A DNA stretch of 64,000 nucleotides from Methanomicrobia archaeon (lineage in GTDB: Archaea > Halobacteriota > Bog-38 > Methanoflorentales > Methanoflorentaceae). Location: contig JACTTZ010000006.1 of the NCBI GenBank assembly GCA_015660915.1, positions 1-64,000 of the forward strand, in the 5' to 3' direction. This document shows, one piece after another, positions 7,078 through 64,000 of the stretch. Each line of letters starts with the position of its first letter. The first letter of the stretch is position 1. Below the pieces are notes generated by a model. It saw nothing but the letters and a program-made list of their open reading frames with translations, did no database searches and was not told the origin of the DNA. The position numbers were made by a program, and so were the translations under genes.

Positions 7078-8598
7078 TCACAGAGCTTCGTTGACGTATA
7101 TCGTCTCATTTTCACGCACATTTTGAAGGGGCTTCGTGTCCAGAATTCTCCCAACAATATTGGTGCTATTGAACCGCTCACCAGTTGGCCCGTACTTTTC
7201 GTTATCCTCTAGACGGACCCCTATTAATCCTGCGTACTTGGAGGAGCGATTTGAAACACCAATTTCGGCGGCATTCACTTTTCCTATCGGCGTGTTTTCC
7301 GGCACAATGTCGAACTTCTCTGTGGTCTGCGCGCGGAACATAACAGTATTGCCATACTTTACGTACGTTTGCAGTGAACCGACTGGATTGTCTCTCAACC
7401 CCGCAACCGTCCTGATGTACGCTACGGTTTTAGGAGCCATATCTTCATAAAGCTCAATTTTAACGAGCTTATCGTGCGGAATTGCAAAGGTTTTCACACT
7501 TCTCGCTTTAAGAATGTCAACCGTGTTGAGGGGTGATTGGTGGACGACCACCGCATCATCGCCTTCATACCCTTCGCGTTCAAGACTGATGCCCAATCGA
7601 TTGACTTCTTCTTCTATTAGCGCGTAGCGCATTCCTAACAACATGATGCGCGTCGGATCGGTATAGACGCGCAACTTCTGCCCAGGCGTTGCGATTTTAA
7701 CGAGCTCTAGTCCCTCACTGACGTACCCGATAACTGAATGATTAGAATTTGACGGCGTCTCTCTTTTATAAATAAATACGTTCCCGCGGTCGTTTCCGGA
7801 CGTTCGGACTGTGATCGCGCCTTCACTCCTCGCATCGAGCATTTCAAACGGAGAAGATCGACCACGCAAGCGTGTGGACACGACATAGGTGTTCGTCACG
7901 CTATCCACTCGATAGCGGCCATCCTTGGCAAGAGCTAGAAAGTGTTCTACGCCCTCTGGAGCATCTCGTGATAGCGTCGCCTTGAAGTAGGTGTACACCT
8001 CCATCCCGGGCTCAAGCGTGATGTCAAGGTCAGACGTCGTGAACTTGTCTGTGACATACTCAAGTCGTTCAATCGGCTCGATCCTTTGAATTTCGTCACC
8101 ATTCTCAAGTTTCTCGAGAACACTCCTGCCTGCAACGGCTTTTCCTACTACAGTGTTTGTTCCATACGAGGCGCTATGTCTCTTTTTTATGAATGAAAGG
8201 TACGTGTTTGCCTGGTCAAACCCGCCAAGGCTGTACGTGATATCCCAGCGCTCGTATTCTCGTTCAGCCCGAGCGACCTGGAGGTCGCTCGGGACGGGAC
8301 CGGCTGATACTATCTGCGGCTGGGACCAATGGACATTGGCCCCTACAAACAAGTTATAAGTACGCAGCCACAGGCGTCGGCACGGCTCATTGATCTCAAT
8401 TCTGATCTCGCCTTTGTTTGTGTAAACGGCATATTCCTTGACGACGTCGAGTTTTTGCGCTTCTCTGCCCTTGATGATGCCCACGATGAGCCCATCGTCG
8501 TAGGGGGTGCCTGTATGCTCAAACGCATCGCGTAGCGTACGAATGGCTGCATCGAGCACAACCTGTTTTCCGTTAAGAACAATGGACTTTGCGCACAT
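7078..8598 (-). CDS. mmp3: Methanogenesis marker protein 3 (UPF0288, cyclophilin-like domains)
   Basis: Full-length Mmp3-like protein (VEHFLALAKDGRYRVDSVTNTYV, KIELYEDMAPKTVAYIRTVAGL). Confidence 0.9.
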   Translation of the reverse strand: MCAKSIVLNGKQVVLDAAIRTLRDAFEHTGTPYDDGLIVGIIKGREAQKLDVVKEYAVYTNKGEIRIEINEPCRRLWLRTYNLFVGANVHWSQPQIVSAGPVPSDLQVARAEREYERWDITYSLGGFDQANTYLSFIKKRHSASYGTNTVVGKAVAGRSVLEKLENGDEIQRIEPIERLEYVTDKFTTSDLDITLEPGMEVYTYFKATLSRDAPEGVEHFLALAKDGRYRVDSVTNTYVVSTRLRGRSSPFEMLDARSEGAITVRTSGNDRGNVFIYKRETPSNSNHSVIGYVSEGLELVKIATPGQKLRVYTDPTRIMLLGMRYALIEEEVNRLGISLEREGYEGDDAVVVHQSPLNTVDILKARSVKTFAIPHDKLVKIELYEDMAPKTVAYIRTVAGLRDNPVGSLQTYVKYGNTVMFRAQTTEKFDIVPENTPIGKVNAAEIGVSNRSSKYAGLIGVRLEDNEKYGPTGERFNSTNIVGRILDTKPLQNVRENETIYVNEAL

Positions 8599-8614
8599 GC
8601 CTGTTCGACATCCG

Positions 8615-10210
8615 TCAGGTAGCCGCTTTCTCGCTTTCTGTTAGCACATCAAGCACTTGTGCCGTCGGTCCGACGGAGATAATCTTGCCCCCGCGCATGA
8701 GGGCTGCCCTGTCGCAGACTTCCTTAACGAAATCGAGATCGTGCGAAACAATCATAAAAGTCTCGCCAATTTCCGTACGCGCCGTCAGAATTGAGTTTGA
8801 CACGTCTTTCTTGGTGATAGGATCCATCGTTCCTGTTGGTTCGTCGAGTATTACGAGGTTAGGCTCGCGAATCAGAACCTGTGCGAGAGCCACCCGATGT
8901 CGCTCTCCTTGGCTTAGCTCATCTGGCACTTTTGCAAGTATACTCTCGCTCTTCGTCTCACTAAACCCAGCCGCCATGAGAGTCTGTACCGCTTTGTGTT
9001 CCGACAATTCGGCCGGAAGTTCTAGGCCGATACTGCTCGTCAGGTTGTCCAAAACGTCGCGAAACGGGTAAAGGTCATATTCTTGATAGAGAATGCCGAT
9101 ATATGGCTTGGCCCTTCCTCGGTTGTCCGGACCGGGCAATGTCATGTCCACCCAGTCGTCGCCAACACGTACTAGGACCTCCCCGTTCGTTGGTTCGAGC
9201 ACGCCTGCGATAATCTTCGAAACACTTGTTTTTCCGGCTCCACTCAGTCCAATTAGCCCAAAAATTTCCCCTTCGTGGACATCAAAAGAAACCTTGCTCA
9301 CGGCTCTGATTACCCCGCGATCGAGTGTCACGTACTTCTTTTCTAGCTCTGCCACTCGTACTATCGTGTCGCCAGAAACGACCTCGTGTTTCTTGATTTC
9401 CCCCACGGTACTCAAAAACTGATCGATGACCTCTTTCGGGGCGCCTTCCTTAATGATTCTCCCATCTTCTAGCAATATTGCTCTATCAGCTATCGATTCA
9501 ATGTCTTCGGGAAGGTGGGAGGTGACAAGTACCGCCATGTCGTTCGTTTTGGCCTCATTTTGGATTACCTTATGGATGATCGCTGCTGTCTTCCGATCCA
9601 GAGTGCCGGTGGGCTCATCGGCGAGTAAGATGATCGGCGATTTTGCCAACTGACGGGCCAAAACAACCCTTTGTTTCTCCCCGCCGCTGAGATCGCGGGC
9701 CATGTGCATCATGCGATGTGATAGCTTCACCTTATCTATGAGCTCAGATGCTTTGTAAATTGCTTCAGAATCGCCGTACCCGCGGTCTGTGAAGTTCCTC
9801 ATGACATTTTCAATAGCGCGCTCGTCTCCATAGAGAGCAAAAGTACGTTGCAGCATTATTGCAACGCGGCTTCTAACGTCTCTTTGCACATCGCTCTCAG
9901 CATTAGCCCACGCGTCGAATCGGAACAACTGCATCGTTCTGGCACACACGGGACAGGGTTGCCCAACTCGACTCGGCACATCAACGTGTCGACAGTTTTG
10001 ACAATACGCCACGTTAAAATAGATCTTGCCGCTTGTTGGCTTGTACTCTTTCAGCCCTCGTATAGCGTGGAGCAAGACGGTCTTTCCAGCCCCACTTTTG
10101 CCAATAATTCCGAGTACTTCACCCTCATCTACTGTGAAATTGATGCCCCGTAAGATCTCAAATTCTCCGAACGTTTTGACCAGATTCTCAACTTCTATCA
10201 AGACGGCCAT
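8615..10210 (-). CDS. atwA: Methyl-coenzyme M reductase activation component A2 (double ABC ATPase)
   Basis: Two ABC cassettes ([40 protein letters not shown]) with a CxxC..CxxC insertion; mmp cluster context. Confidence 0.92.
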
Positions 10211-26422: not shown

Positions 26423-26664
26423 TAGTGAACGTCAATTTGCCTATAAATGCGTTGTGATCTTCCACGAGCGCTGTTCAGTGATTTGAAGTCGCGGGGCACG
26501 GCAACTTGTCGACACGTTCTACGTTCTAAGTTTTGTCAGCTGCTGGAAAAGTCAACCTTAAGGTTGGCATTCATTGACGAAAAGGGCGTCCGAGGAGGTA
26601 TTGCGGAGGTGAGAGCTGCAGGGGGGCCTCCTTGTTGATTCCGACTCTAGACTCCGACATGGAA

Positions 26665-26905
26665 GAAGATGTATCACTACTTTGAGTATCGAAATGCTGA
26701 GTTCTTGGAGCACTACCACAAACGGAGCAATGCCGAAACGACGTTCCATATGACAAAGAGCAAGTTTGGGCACGCGGCGAGAAGCAAGACCGAAGTGGTG
26801 CAGGTTAATGAGGTGTTGCTAAAAGTGTTTTATCACAACATCTGTGTGGTGATTCAACAGATGTGGGGGTTGGGGATAGAGCCGAATTTCTTCGGCTCGA
26901 GCTAA
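26665..26905 (+). mobile_element. Transposase C-terminal remnant (same family as 60870-62047)
   Basis: KKMYHYFEYRNAEFLEHYHKRSNAETTFHMTKSKFG...ICVVIQQMWGLGIEPNFFGSS nearly identical to the larger copy. Confidence 0.85.
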
Positions 26906-28319: not shown

Positions 28320-28490
28320 TGTTGCAACAGTCGGGACTTTGTTGCAGAAGTAGGCGAGAGACTGGGGTTTTGCAACAAAGCCCCTGATTGAGGCTTTGTT
28401 GAAGAAGTGCTCGTGAAGCGCTACTTTTTCAACAGACGACTGACTTTTTCAACACGTGGCAGTTATTCAACAAAGCCCCTGATTGACCAA
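28320..28490. repeat. Intergenic CAACAAAGCC/GGCTTTGTTG repeat block (decayed IS end or MITE-like)
   Basis: Exact 19-bp direct repeat CAACAAAGCCCCTGATTGA at 28373-28391 and 28468-28486; inverted GGCTTTGTTG at 28392-28401. Confidence 0.7.
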
Positions 28491-59311: not shown

Positions 59312-59764
59312 CACCGGCTGGTGTGCATATTTTTTGCGTCGTTTCGCAGTGACAAATCCCGCATAAGCGGCTGACAAGATTCGACTTTTTTCCGCTGAGG
59401 CTTTTTTTTGATGATTTGCGATTGTGGTTGTTATCCACTGACGCCAGAGAATCGGTCTGTCTAGGTCTTACGCAGTACTAACGTCGCGCGGCCCCTAAAG
59501 AAGCCCTTGAAAAGATGCTTGGGACGGGTGTATAGCGCCGCAATAACTCTTAGGCTTTGTTGCATAACCCCCGTCTGTTGCAAAAGTAAAGGTTGTGTTG
59601 CAAAAGTCTACGCGGGTTGGGGTTCTGTTAAACCAAACGTTGTTAATCCTAGGTTGTTGAGAAAAGGTTGGCGGAAAATTGTTTTTCTGTAACAATTGCA
59701 CGTTACATAGGATTATGTTATCGCAATATGGGATAACTTGCATTGTATTTGTAGAGGGAGTAAT

Positions 59765-60553
59765 ATGACGCTAAGTATCATTATTAGAAGCCCAGATGGC
59801 ATTGTACTCGCCACTGAAAGCAGAAGTTTGACGGAAGTGACTTTGCCAAACGGTTCGAAATGCCCAATTAGCTTTGATGAAACCAAGAAACTCCTAACGT
59901 TTGACGAACCCCACAACTTTGTAGCTGCTGTCACGACCGGGCTTGGAGGAATAGGGAATAGGTCTGTTTATAATTTCGTACCAGATTTTGAAGCAACAAT
60001 CGCTTCAGAAGGTCGTATGCCGGTTGACGAGTTCTCCGAAAAAATGTCCAACTTCTTCATGAAGGAATGGGAGAGGCGGCCACCAGAAATGAAAGACTGG
60101 AAAGGCCCGTCGATATCTTTTCTCGCGGCGGGTTTCAACGAAGGGGATGCATATCCTCACACTTACAAAATAGATATTCCTTCTGAACCGAAACCCGTTG
60201 AATTGCCCCAGATAGACATAACTTGGGGAGGTGAAGGAGAGCTAGTCAACAGACTGATAAAAGGTTATGACCCCAACCTTCCAAAACGATTGTCAGACGC
60301 TTGGTCGTTAACTGAAGAACAAGTGAAAGCTATGCCAGAAATCGCGCAACCGCTTTCTCTACAGTTCCCGTTGCCAGTGATGGGATTGCAAGGCTACATT
60401 GACTTAGCGGTATTGCTTCTCCGCACCACGATAGAAACTCAGCGACTAGCACTCTACGTAAGGGGGTGTGGCGGCCCTATCGACATGGCTACAATAACGC
60501 GAGGAGACGGGCTTTGCTTCGTTCGACTTAATGACGAAGACGAGATTTGCTAA
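59765..60553 (+). CDS. Stand-alone proteasome-beta-like Ntn-hydrolase
   Basis: MTLSIIIRSPDGIVLATESR and IDMATITRGDG align with the proteasome beta N-terminus (Thr1, Glu17) and the IDVAVITRKDG C-terminal strand. Confidence 0.7.
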   Translation: MTLSIIIRSPDGIVLATESRSLTEVTLPNGSKCPISFDETKKLLTFDEPHNFVAAVTTGLGGIGNRSVYNFVPDFEATIASEGRMPVDEFSEKMSNFFMKEWERRPPEMKDWKGPSISFLAAGFNEGDAYPHTYKIDIPSEPKPVELPQIDITWGGEGELVNRLIKGYDPNLPKRLSDAWSLTEEQVKAMPEIAQPLSLQFPLPVMGLQGYIDLAVLLLRTTIETQRLALYVRGCGGPIDMATITRGDGLCFVRLNDEDEIC

Positions 60554-60738
60554 CTGCGGAGACTAAAAAATTGTCCTGAGGTACCGTGTTTCGGCCCTTC
60601 AGTTTGCGAGCGAACGCGCTTTATATATTCCTCAATTGCTTTGTAGTCGCTTTCCGTAATTTCTTCGCCGTCTAAGAAGTATTTGTCAACGCTCTTTTTC
60701 TCAAGCACGTGGGTGCTATTTTCTATCTTACTTTCCAT
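60550..60738 (-). CDS. Small hypothetical protein
   Basis: 62-aa charged ORF convergent and 4 nt overlapping with the proteasome-like gene. Confidence 0.45.
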   Translation of the reverse strand: MESKIENSTHVLEKKSVDKYFLDGEEITESDYKAIEEYIKRVRSQTEGPKHGTSGQFFSLRS

Positions 60739-60869
60739 TCTAAATTAACCGATTGCTAGGTAAACGTTTAATCGGACGTACGACGATTATCAGTTCTTTG
60801 TCGCGTATTTCTAGCTGCCAATCTAATGAATCATCACTCGTCAGGTTCAAAGCTCGGAAGGAAAGGGGT

Positions 60870-62047
60870 TTGAGCATAGCAAAGACCTGCAAAATCACCA
60901 AGAGCGGCAACAGTTGGATAGTTCCCTCTCAGTCAAACGGAACCACATACGACGTAGAATTCTCAGAATTTGACCATAAACAGTCTTGCACTTGCCCTGA
61001 TTACCAATACCGGAAAATCAAGTGCAAGCATATCTTCGCGGTTGTGTTAATCGTCACTGAAGAGATTGACAGCTACGGAACGGTCACGCAGACTGTTACA
61101 AAGCGGGTAAGCTACGCGCAGAATTGGCAAGCCTACGACCAAGCGCAAATACACCAGAAAGAGCTTTTTATGGGCTTGCTCCGAGACTTAACAAGTTCTA
61201 TTCCGCAGCCGGAGTACACGTTTGGAAGGCCGAAGTTGCCATTAGCCGATATGGTGTTTGCGTCTGCTTTGAAGGTCTTCTCAACCTTTTCGCTAAGGCG
61301 GTTTACCACTGACATGCAAATAGCAAAGGAGAGAGGTTTGATTGAGAGAGTGCCCTACTACACGACTGTTGCGCGGTATATGGAGAATTCAGAGCTAACA
61401 CCCATCATCAAAGACCTTATCGCCATGACAAGCCTCGCTTTAGCCTCAGTTGAAAACGACTTCACTATTGACAGCTCAGGATTCGGAACTTCGAGGTTTG
61501 TCAAGTGGTTCGACCACAAATACGGCAAAGACAAAGACGTTAGGACGTGGGTAAAAGCGCACGTAGCTTGCGGGGTTAAGACAAACATCGTTACTGCTGT
61601 CGAGTTGACAATGGGTAACGAGCATGATTCAAAGTTTCTGCCGGAACTGGTGACTCAGACAGCTCAGAACTTTACGTCAAAGAAGTGTCCGGAGATAAGG
61701 CGTATTCTTCGAGAGCCAATTTAGAATTGATAAACGAGCTGGGCGCTGTGCCTTACATCCCATTTAAAAAGGGAACCACAGGCCGAGCGAAGAACGCGCC
61801 AACGTGGAAGAAGATGTATCACTACTTCGAATTCAGAAACGAGGAATTCCTAGAGCACTACCACAAGCGGAGCAATGCAGAGACGACGTTTCATATGATA
61901 AAGAGCAAGTCTGGGGATTCAGTACGCAGTAAGACGGAAGTGGCTCAGGCTAATGAAGTCTTACTGAAAGTGCTGTGCCACAACATCTGCGTGGTAATAC
62001 AGGAGATGTTTGAGTTGGGCATTGAACCCAACTTTTTTTCTTCTTAA
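60870..62047 (+). mobile_element. SWIM Zn-finger DDE transposase in two frames (60870-61724 and 61685-62047)
   Basis: SWIM motif CTCPDYQYRKIKCKH; DDE-like IDSSGFGTSRFVKWFDHKYGK...; the second frame carries SGDKAYSSRANLELI and the C-terminus. Confidence 0.85.
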
Positions 62048-62125
62048 GGGTGGGTGTTTGGTTCGGCAGCCAGAGCTTTTTGTAAGAGCACTGTTAATAA
62101 CCACTCTTCTGGAAGGCGATAACCT

Positions 62126-62407
62126 ATGAATCAGAGCGAGCTGTTTAAAGAAGTTCTTGAGAATATTAGGAAAGAGATTAAATCCCAAAATGATGAGATA
62201 ATAAAAATCGCAGAGCGTGTTGGAGATAAAGAGAGAAAGAAGATAGGAGACCGTATTAGCATCGACAGCGACATCGCTGACGGCTTCAAGAACATCGTTT
62301 CCAACATCGACCGGCTAGAACAGATGATAAGCGCGGTAAACCAGAGAGTTTTTGAGGTAAACCAGAGAGTTACTGAATTGGCGAAGCATACTTACCCCTA
62401 TGTATGA
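62126..62407 (+). CDS. Small coiled-coil hypothetical protein
   Basis: 93 aa, heptad-like, ends with tandem VNQRVFEVNQRVTEL. Confidence 0.55.
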   Translation: MNQSELFKEVLENIRKEIKSQNDEIIKIAERVGDKERKKIGDRISIDSDIADGFKNIVSNIDRLEQMISAVNQRVFEVNQRVTELAKHTYPYV

Positions 62408-62471
62408 GTGTGTTACACGTTTGTGGTTGTGACGGTAAGAACCTAACCAGAAATTTGGGGGGGGTGAGGAA

Positions 62472-62633
62472 TTGGTCAATGAAGATGAATTTAAGGTATT
62501 AGAAAACCGTGTGGAAGAGCTTGAAAGACTTTTTGAAGAACTCCATCAGCAAATGACACCCGATAAGATAGGAAAATTGGTTGAGAAATACGTGAAAGAA
62601 TATGCTAAGCTTCCAGAAGGAGCTAGGAGTTAA
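62472..62633 (+). CDS. Short coiled-coil protein, TTG start (absent from the ORF track)
   Basis: LVNEDEFKVLENRVEELERLFEELHQQMTPDKIGKLVEKYVKEYAKLPEGARS; strong RBS ggggggtgagga. Confidence 0.5.
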   Translation: MVNEDEFKVLENRVEELERLFEELHQQMTPDKIGKLVEKYVKEYAKLPEGARS

Positions 62634-62784
62634 CGAGTCGTATACGCTTATTATTTTCTGCTTTACTCCTTAACTTAACGAATCTTTGTTACCAACCGAT
62701 TCACCTCAGCCACTTTTCACCGATTCAGCAACCGCAGATTCAGCACTAGTTTCGAGTGGGTTCACTGGAGATTCAACAAAGCCG

Positions 62785-62829
62785 CAACAAAAGATGTTTG
62801 AGTTGGGGATTGAGCCGAGTTTCTTTGGT
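62785..62829 (+). mobile_element. Third transposase scar (C-terminal 15 codons)
   Basis: caacaaaagatgtttgagttggggattgagccgagtttctttggt encodes QQKMFELGIEPSFFG, matching IQEMFELGIEPNFFS of the larger copy. Confidence 0.75.
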
Positions 62830-62923
62830 CTTACGCCCGCTTTGAATGCCGACTTGTAAGCAAGACTACCGAAAGATATTTTTCTTTTCACATATTATAT
62901 TATAAAACAGGGACGTGGCGACG

Positions 62924-63214
62924 ATGGCAGGTATAATCAATAGTCGTGGCAATTCTTTTACTGGTGGTGACGATTATTTTCAAGGTGGCAATGCATCTGT
63001 AAATGGCAACTATTTTTCGGCAAGAGACGATGTTATTCTTGTGGATTCCTCCGCCTTAACAGCCTGCGCCTTACCTACCTTTATAAGAAGCGGAGAAACT
63101 CTACCTCCAGAAATACTCCCGGATGTAAGTAAAGAGAAGCCACTACTCTTCGAAATAGATATCATACGTGTTGTTTCGGCTGAGCCGTTAATAGACCAAA
63201 TAAAACGACGTTGA
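62924..63214 (+). CDS. Hypothetical protein with Gly/Asn-rich N-terminus
   Basis: MAGIINSRGNSFTGGDDYFQGGNASVNGNYFSARDDVILVDSS; abuts the next gene. Confidence 0.55.
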   Translation: MAGIINSRGNSFTGGDDYFQGGNASVNGNYFSARDDVILVDSSALTACALPTFIRSGETLPPEILPDVSKEKPLLFEIDIIRVVSAEPLIDQIKRR

Positions 63215-63234
63215 AGGCGTTTAGATGGGTAATA

Positions 63235-63999
63235 ATGGTTAATATTGACCCTTGCGACGCCTGCGACGCAAAAGACAAGTGTTCAGCAGTTTTTGATGAA
63301 ATTGACAATACTAAGGAAATTGAACAGGGCGACATACTCCTTTTGCCTTATATTTATCCTATAGGACGTATCGAATTTGCAGAAGATAAGCCCGAGGGTA
63401 AGCTCAAAGCATGGATACAAAAATGGAATGCTGTGGTGCTAAGTCACTCTAGCACTTTGGCACAAAACAAGTTAGACCTCGTGCTTCTCTGTCCTATATG
63501 GGGGGTAAGCAGTTTCTATGCAAATCGCGTCGAGCGGCTTAAACTAGATGATGAATATGCCAAAAAAATTTTTAAAGACGGTAAATTTGATAGAGAAAAC
63601 TTCAAAAATAAAACAGATAGTCTACTTAGTGAAGCGACTATAGGTACTCAATATGGTTACAGTATTCTAAAAAAGACACCTCCGTGCGACAAATATCAAA
63701 AAGGCTTAGCTCCGATGCTTGTTGATTTTACTAATGCTTATTCACTTCCTGTAGATTTAATAAAGCGTTACGTAGAAAAATCTCAAGACAAGCCTAAGAG
63801 GCTTAGGTTGACATGCGAGTATAGAATTGATTTGGTAAGCAGGTTCAACTATTTCTTGCAAAGGACTGTGGCGCCAAGAGATGAACTTAGTTTTCCAGAT
63901 ATGAAGCAAAATGACATTGATTATCCACGAATAGATACGATGCTCGATAAAGTGGCTGAGGCTTCAGAAAAAAAAGAAAAGAAAACGGGTGAAAGCTGA
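63235..63999 (+). CDS. Hypothetical protein, possible SH3-barrel/PemK-like N-terminal fold
   Basis: IEQGDILLLPYIYPIGRIEF...WNAVVLSHSSTLAQNKLDLVLLCPI resembles MazF/PemK strand pattern; weak. Confidence 0.4.
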   Translation: MVNIDPCDACDAKDKCSAVFDEIDNTKEIEQGDILLLPYIYPIGRIEFAEDKPEGKLKAWIQKWNAVVLSHSSTLAQNKLDLVLLCPIWGVSSFYANRVERLKLDDEYAKKIFKDGKFDRENFKNKTDSLLSEATIGTQYGYSILKKTPPCDKYQKGLAPMLVDFTNAYSLPVDLIKRYVEKSQDKPKRLRLTCEYRIDLVSRFNYFLQRTVAPRDELSFPDMKQNDIDYPRIDTMLDKVAEASEKKEKKTGES

Positions 64000-64000
64000 C

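Follow-up and report, generated by a model that had tools for sequence, protein, structure and literature searches.

Twenty-two families of proteasome-like proteins were described in 2021, with few functional clues in the excerpts of the survey used here (Fuchs, Alva and Lupas 2021, PMC8665760). Group II of that survey comprises the Proteasome homologs with Multiple Insertions (PMI). According to these excerpts, an insertion between helices H3 and H4 is a trait of PMI-2 to PMI-6, and a long pore-loop insertion after H2 is found in PMI-3 and PMI-4 only.

Three-component toxin-antitoxin systems that include a Zn protease have also been predicted; in these, COG2856-Xre proteins occur with RelE or PIN (Makarova 2009, PMC2701414). 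There, as in the PMI loci, a protease gene stands beside exchangeable type II toxins. In contrast, the COG2856 protein is a metalloprotease that is unrelated to Ntn proteins and in many cases joined to an Xre repressor, whereas the third component gene of the PMI loci encodes a proteasome-like protein. No description of a link between PMI or other proteasome-like proteins and toxin-antitoxin systems was found in the open-access literature.

The gene studied here lies in the window, a stretch of 64,000 nucleotides on contig C24 of a host genome of 27 contigs and 2.04 Mb (G000). Based on its H3/H4 insertion, the absent propeptide and the taxonomic spread of its relatives, its product fits the uncharacterised PMI group, matched on the described traits and not on published PMI sequences. 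In common with the PMI proteins as excerpted, it has the Thr/Ser1-Asp/Glu17-Lys33 set of residues, no propeptide and the H3/H4 insertion, and both sets are spread over bacteria, Euryarchaeota and phages. The family is already described; transposon carriage of the gene and the toxin operons found with its relatives appear to be new. The excerpts of Fuchs et al. (2021), which mention neither, describe no genomic context that hints at a function.

Sequence and fold of the peptidase

The PMI-type, proteasome-beta-like Ntn protein (262 aa) is encoded on the plus strand at 59765-60553, with the ATG at 59765 and the stop codon at 60551-60553. Its N-terminus reads MTLSIIIRSPDGIVLATESR and its C-terminal motif GGPIDMATITRGDG. 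An earlier, sequence-only reading had placed Thr at position 1 and Glu at position 17 and had likened the C-terminal motif to that of the beta subunit. The alignment agrees on each point, as Thr2, Glu18 and GGPIDMATITRGDG all match proteasome beta, and the propeptide that it had reported missing is indeed absent from the ORF. Its doubt about Lys33 was misplaced: all 72 of 72 relatives have Lys42 (in TKKL), which lines up with the catalytic Lys of psmB and had been overlooked because the S2-S3 hairpin is about 8 residues longer. Aligned to psmB of the host genome, residues 2, 18 and 42 correspond to Thr1, Glu17 and Lys33, the predicted catalytic residues. Residue 2 is Thr or Ser and residue 18 Asp or Glu in all 72 rows of the same alignment, and Gly59, by our reading of the psmB alignment the putative counterpart of the oxyanion Gly47, is kept in 71 of them. 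Of the 88 relatives whose N-terminus is intact, 61 have Thr and 27 Ser at residue 2, 85 have Asp and 3 Glu at residue 18, and all have Ser at residue 19. The start codon immediately precedes this Thr or Ser in the relatives inspected. The secondary residues of proteasome beta, Ser129, Asp166 and Ser169, are apparently without conservation in the PMI family, as read from the alignment.

An AF2 model of the protein (built with 72 relatives; mean pLDDT 93.1, pTM 0.89) has the proteasome-beta Ntn fold that the sequence-only reading had anticipated. Foldseek against the PDB returned the Thermoplasma beta subunit 1pma as the top match (E 5e-10), and the best 50 matches were all proteasome structures. 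Profile comparison by hhalign of the family with psmB of the host genome gave a probability of 93% (E 2.5e-7), as against 0.1% for a control comparison with an unrelated transposase. In the model, the insertion between H3 (159-166) and H4 (208-227) spans about residues 167-207 and contains the extra helices 172-180 and 184-197. The region after H2 measures about 12 residues (105-116), within a range of 7-39 across the aligned region of the family. The protein shares with PsmB the fold, the order of the catalytic residues and the C-terminal GG.ID.A.ITR.DG strand; it differs in lacking a propeptide and an alpha partner, in its extra helices, its longer S2-S3 hairpin and its mobile context, and apparently in not keeping the positions of Asp166 and Ser169.

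Single-protein searches with the window protein alone gave no match in Pfam, PADLOC, NCBIfam, plasmids or genome_contigs, and the PF00227 and psmB models did not match it either. At the family level, PHROG 5990 (function unknown) matches 69 of the 72 members, and the archaeal proteasome beta model matches 21 of the 72 weakly. The host genome encodes psmA on contig C10 and psmB on contig C7. As a stand-alone Ntn protein it therefore differs from the housekeeping 20S proteasome, as had been claimed, and the possibility raised with that claim, an ordinary psmB in its housekeeping context, does not agree with a gene that lies in a transposon while psmA and psmB lie elsewhere. A further proteasome-like protein of 271 aa in the host genome (contig C18, locus L169, 4865-5680) scores just above the PF00227 cut-off with its N-terminal part only and is not a PMI protein.

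PMI relatives were found in two genomes of the same genus and in a few others of the phylum. A profile built from six such relatives retrieved 87 related stretches in bacteria and archaea, of which 80 were kept, and 14 in viral contigs. PMI genes were sparse in about 800 further genomes from two phyla (10 of 396 and 14 of 400). A third PMI-like gene of the host genome (contig C13, locus L168, 5767-6693; 308 aa, GTG-Thr start) lies a few kb from terminase-like genes, probably in a provirus. In the tailed-virus locus L095, a PMI gene (7965-8771) is the sole plus-strand gene among portal-like and capsid-like genes on the minus strand, a placement typical of a moron gene. A motif near it resembling a terminal inverted repeat (TIR) has no partner end and is probably a chance match.

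Transposon E1 and candidate partners of the peptidase

The peptidase gene is cargo of a transposon, E1, which occupies 59553-64000 on the plus strand of the window and ends at 64678 of contig C24; the last 678 of its 5,126 bp fall beyond the window. Both ends carry the TIR GGCTTTGTTGCA, as GGCTTTGTTGCATAA at 59553 and GCAACAAAGCC at 64678, and they are flanked by a 9-bp target duplication, TAACTCTTA, at 59544-59552 and contig positions 64679-64687. Three exact copies of TAACTCTTA occur in a 19-kb stretch against 0.15 expected, all at element junctions. This upholds the earlier claim of a mobile gene. The claim that inverted motifs bound it stands in part: GGCTTTGTTG at 59553 and CAACAAAGCC at 62774 belong to a motif with five copies in the window against 0.13 expected, and 59553 is the left end, but 62774-62783 is not the right end, as no duplication lies there and the true end is at 64678. 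Behind the internal CAACAAAGCC (62774-62783) comes a stray duplicate of the 3' end of the transposase gene (62792-62827), and the two are likely the scar of recombination between element copies.

Between these ends, the left terminal region (59553-59749, plus strand) is 90% identical to that of a sister element on contig C4, E3, and this identity ceases 15 bp upstream of the peptidase start codon. The convergent 62-aa ORF on the minus strand (60553-60738), which had been listed as an associated gene, was absent from every fetched locus when recurring neighbours were searched for; it has no relatives there and is left out of the proposed system. A minus-strand remnant at 60764-60859 (32 aa, 84% identity) is what is left of a MazE/AbrB-like gene of 64 aa, of which E3 has an intact copy. 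The SWIM-finger transposase reported beside the peptidase gene was confirmed by its SWIM and DDE_Tnp_1 domains. Its gene (60777-62047, plus strand) is split by a frameshift between 61685 and 61721 into frames 60777-61721 and 61685-62044, and is 83% identical to the E3 transposase gene at the nucleotide level. We take the E1 family to resemble the IS903 group of the IS5 family; the transposase itself matched PF01609 (DDE_Tnp_1), a domain common to several IS families. The two have in common a TIR starting with GGCTTTGTTG, the 9-bp duplication and a DDE_Tnp_1 transposase, and the E1 family differs by its N-terminal SWIM zinc finger and multi-gene cargo.

The E3 paralogue of the peptidase is 39-40% identical to the window protein (38.9% by global alignment). 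Nucleotide identity between E1 and E3 amounts to 89-90% in the terminal 200 bp and 74-91% in the transposase, and falls to about 50% in the peptidase gene, recovering to 82-91% beyond it. As the drop is confined to this gene, the cargo has either had a different history from its carrier or evolved much faster. That the E1 peptidase was replaced by one of a different lineage was considered in view of this drop and of the PMI tree, which places the E1 peptidase beside bacterial sequences. An AU test did not reject E1 and E3 in one clade (p 0.38), so that fast divergence stays possible, and replacement was not adopted. Both peptidases fall into one subfamily of 14 rows (support 99/99), which includes L199 and L200, with the order PMI, small ORF, PemK, and L206, with PMI, small ORF, ParE.

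No Pfam toxin or antitoxin adjoins the window PMI gene. The likely candidates for its partners are the products of two plus-strand genes downstream (62924-63999): a 96-aa protein (62924-63214) as a possible middle, antitoxin-like gene, and a 254-aa protein (63235-63999) of what we call the SQSCDL family (QGDI...SQSCDL). The Helarchaeota locus L017 has a homologue of the latter in third place behind PMI (second-round E 6.8e-19). The 254-aa product has no Pfam domain and no PDB match, and AF2 gave no usable model (pLDDT 33); its consideration as a MazF relative went back to motif likeness only and was dropped on these grounds. The SQSCDL family also stands behind another conserved three-gene head in archaeal relatives. 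In the archaeal three-gene operons L183-L188, SQSCDL is third and the first gene, which presumably resembles TIGR04255, occupies the place that PMI has in L017. In another genus, a weak relative of the SQSCDL family adjoins a decayed transposase of the E1 type (L134, contig C49 of genome G038).

Toxin operons of the relatives and the proposed role

In other organisms a layout recurs in which PMI is followed by a small ORF (76-141 aa) and a toxin. Counting Pfam toxins in same-strand ORFs within 1.3 kb downstream of PMI, 18 of 65 loci had one, compared with 0 of 61 upstream (Fisher p 2.2e-6), in the same loci in which the pattern had first been spotted. The downstream toxins were PIN (10), PemK/MazF (3), Fic (2), ParE-like (2) and ParE (1), with at least eight of the PIN loci belonging to one acidobacterial clade; an additional Fic toxin stands behind PMI in a viral contig. 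With toxin models built from these same loci, 20 toxins were counted in 86 kb of downstream sequence as against one elsewhere in 1.7 Mb of strand. Fresh genomes, considered on the downstream side, had PIN, PemK or ParE in 4 of 20 new loci. The middle ORF was traced in 18 of 20 toxin loci; it starts between -55 and +68 nt from the PMI stop codon, and in most of these 18 loci its own stop codon has a 4-nt overlap with the start of the toxin gene. Middle proteins are variable in their N-terminal part, which is often rich in Pro and Ser, and several have, by eye and without a Pfam match, an antitoxin-like C-terminus.

The toxin behind PMI is exchangeable. The PMI proteins of L017, L018 and L023 are 66-69% identical and are followed by an SQSCDL-family protein, a PIN and a MazF toxin, respectively; on the PMI tree at least 13 toxin state changes are required, and at least seven among toxin-bearing rows. 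Clustering across the fetched loci yielded no family-wide conserved neighbour because the toxins differ in fold. No recognised toxin lies downstream in 47 of the 65 loci, including actinobacterial, Roseomonas-type and Caldisericum lineages, and a HEPN toxin suggested by eye in L039 was not confirmed.

We regard the window gene as a transposon-borne, PMI-type proteasome homologue that may serve as the peptidase of a toxin-antitoxin module and act on its middle product, a reading to which we give a probability of about one half; for the window copy, the module role is inferred from its relatives. More generally, PMI proteins are proposed to be dedicated toxin-antitoxin peptidases, probably independent of ATP, and the position of PMI genes directly ahead of toxin-antitoxin pairs suggests that some cells switch such toxins on or off with a proteasome-like enzyme. 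Removal of the initiator Met would free Thr1 as the nucleophile. The substrate would be a protein without a tight fold or with none at all, with the antitoxin-like middle product as the most likely candidate, and is probably already unfolded given that no unfoldase gene accompanies the PMI gene in the elements read. Its processing would set the level of free toxin, with phage infection or loss of the element as possible triggers. Somewhat more tentative is the full three-gene scheme, in which a fixed PMI peptidase would act on an unstable antitoxin without an ATPase, the toxin (PIN, MazF, ParE, Fic and possibly SQSCDL) would be freely exchanged, and transposons and phages would spread the module.

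The peptidase might instead be passive or independent cargo, engaged for example in stress proteolysis or virion processing, with neighbours that reflect a pile-up of mobile genes. This would suit the solitary PMI gene among the capsid-like and portal-like genes of L095, the PMI-like gene near a terminase-like gene in the host genome (L168), the absence of toxins from most PMI loci and the lack of a telling context in the excerpts of Fuchs et al. (2021, PMC8665760). We consider it unlikely, as it does not account for the strict direction and tight downstream spacing with no toxins upstream, nor for the 13 or more state changes and the toxin swaps behind closely related PMI proteins.

Slightly less probable still is a specific protein ligase or transpeptidase, or a chaperone-like antitoxin partner, that modifies or holds the middle protein. 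Connectase, which also lacks a propeptide, has a conserved Ntn site and works as a ligase in monomeric form, and H3/H4 insertions, of which the window protein is predicted to have one, could block double-ring assembly according to the excerpts of the same survey (Fuchs et al. 2021). Against this reading, no common recognition motif was seen in the middle proteins. The identical fold and the Thr1/Glu17/Lys33 set would also suit an ordinary psmB or HslV copy captured by the transposon, which is already largely refuted and very improbable: the protein has no PF00227 or NCBIfam match and belongs to a separate family with its own insertion, and psmA and psmB lie on other contigs.

With this recurrent and directional operon, in which toxins are swapped, the PMI group acquires for the first time a role that is concrete and testable. 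Were PMI to process antitoxins, it would be an instance of a proteasome relative that specialises in controlling toxins, and would bear on the old question of whether one early task of the family was to degrade disordered proteins without ATP.

Sister elements and stacked insertions

Nine-bp duplications were found at E1, E2 and E3. E2 (contig C24, 64688-70146) abuts E1 and is closed by the third copy of TAACTCTTA; its SWIM-DDE transposase is intact, and it also encodes an EVE-domain protein and an N6-methylase whose N-terminus is of the HsdR type. E3 (contig C4, 45595-49134; duplication GACGTGAGT) carries, besides the PMI paralogue, an intact 407-aa transposase, the MazE/AbrB-like gene and a 151-aa gene, whose homologue in E1 (36% identity) lies beyond the window, at the right end of that element. 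This second cargo gene common to both elements (contig C24, 64022-64543; L008, 5955-6407; 36% identity) encodes an EPWNEY motif; among 197 genomes of the phylum, 35 have relatives of it. Another member of this element family, flanked by the duplication CCGGATCGA, lies in the sister genome G006; it has a methylase gene and a Panacea/ParE-like pair, and the Panacea and ParE Pfam matches of the pair lie under the curated cut-offs. The restriction-modification and toxin-antitoxin genes of these sister elements lend weight to the possible link with defence that had been suggested for the mobile element.

Head-to-tail stacking at a single target is seen in this family, with identical 9-bp duplications for neighbouring elements. 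The stack to which E1 belongs (contig C24, 59544-70155; window 59544-64000) shows TAACTCTTA three times. Elsewhere in the window, CCTGATTGA occurs twice around an 86-bp mini-element (28383-28486), with the end of another element directly before it, at 28382. A left end for that element was not found; upstream of 28382 lies a decayed C-terminal transposase fragment (26648-26896; 80% identity, one stop codon). At L159 (1045-7810), three copies of CCGGATCGA flank an 86-bp mini-element and an element of 6.65 kb.
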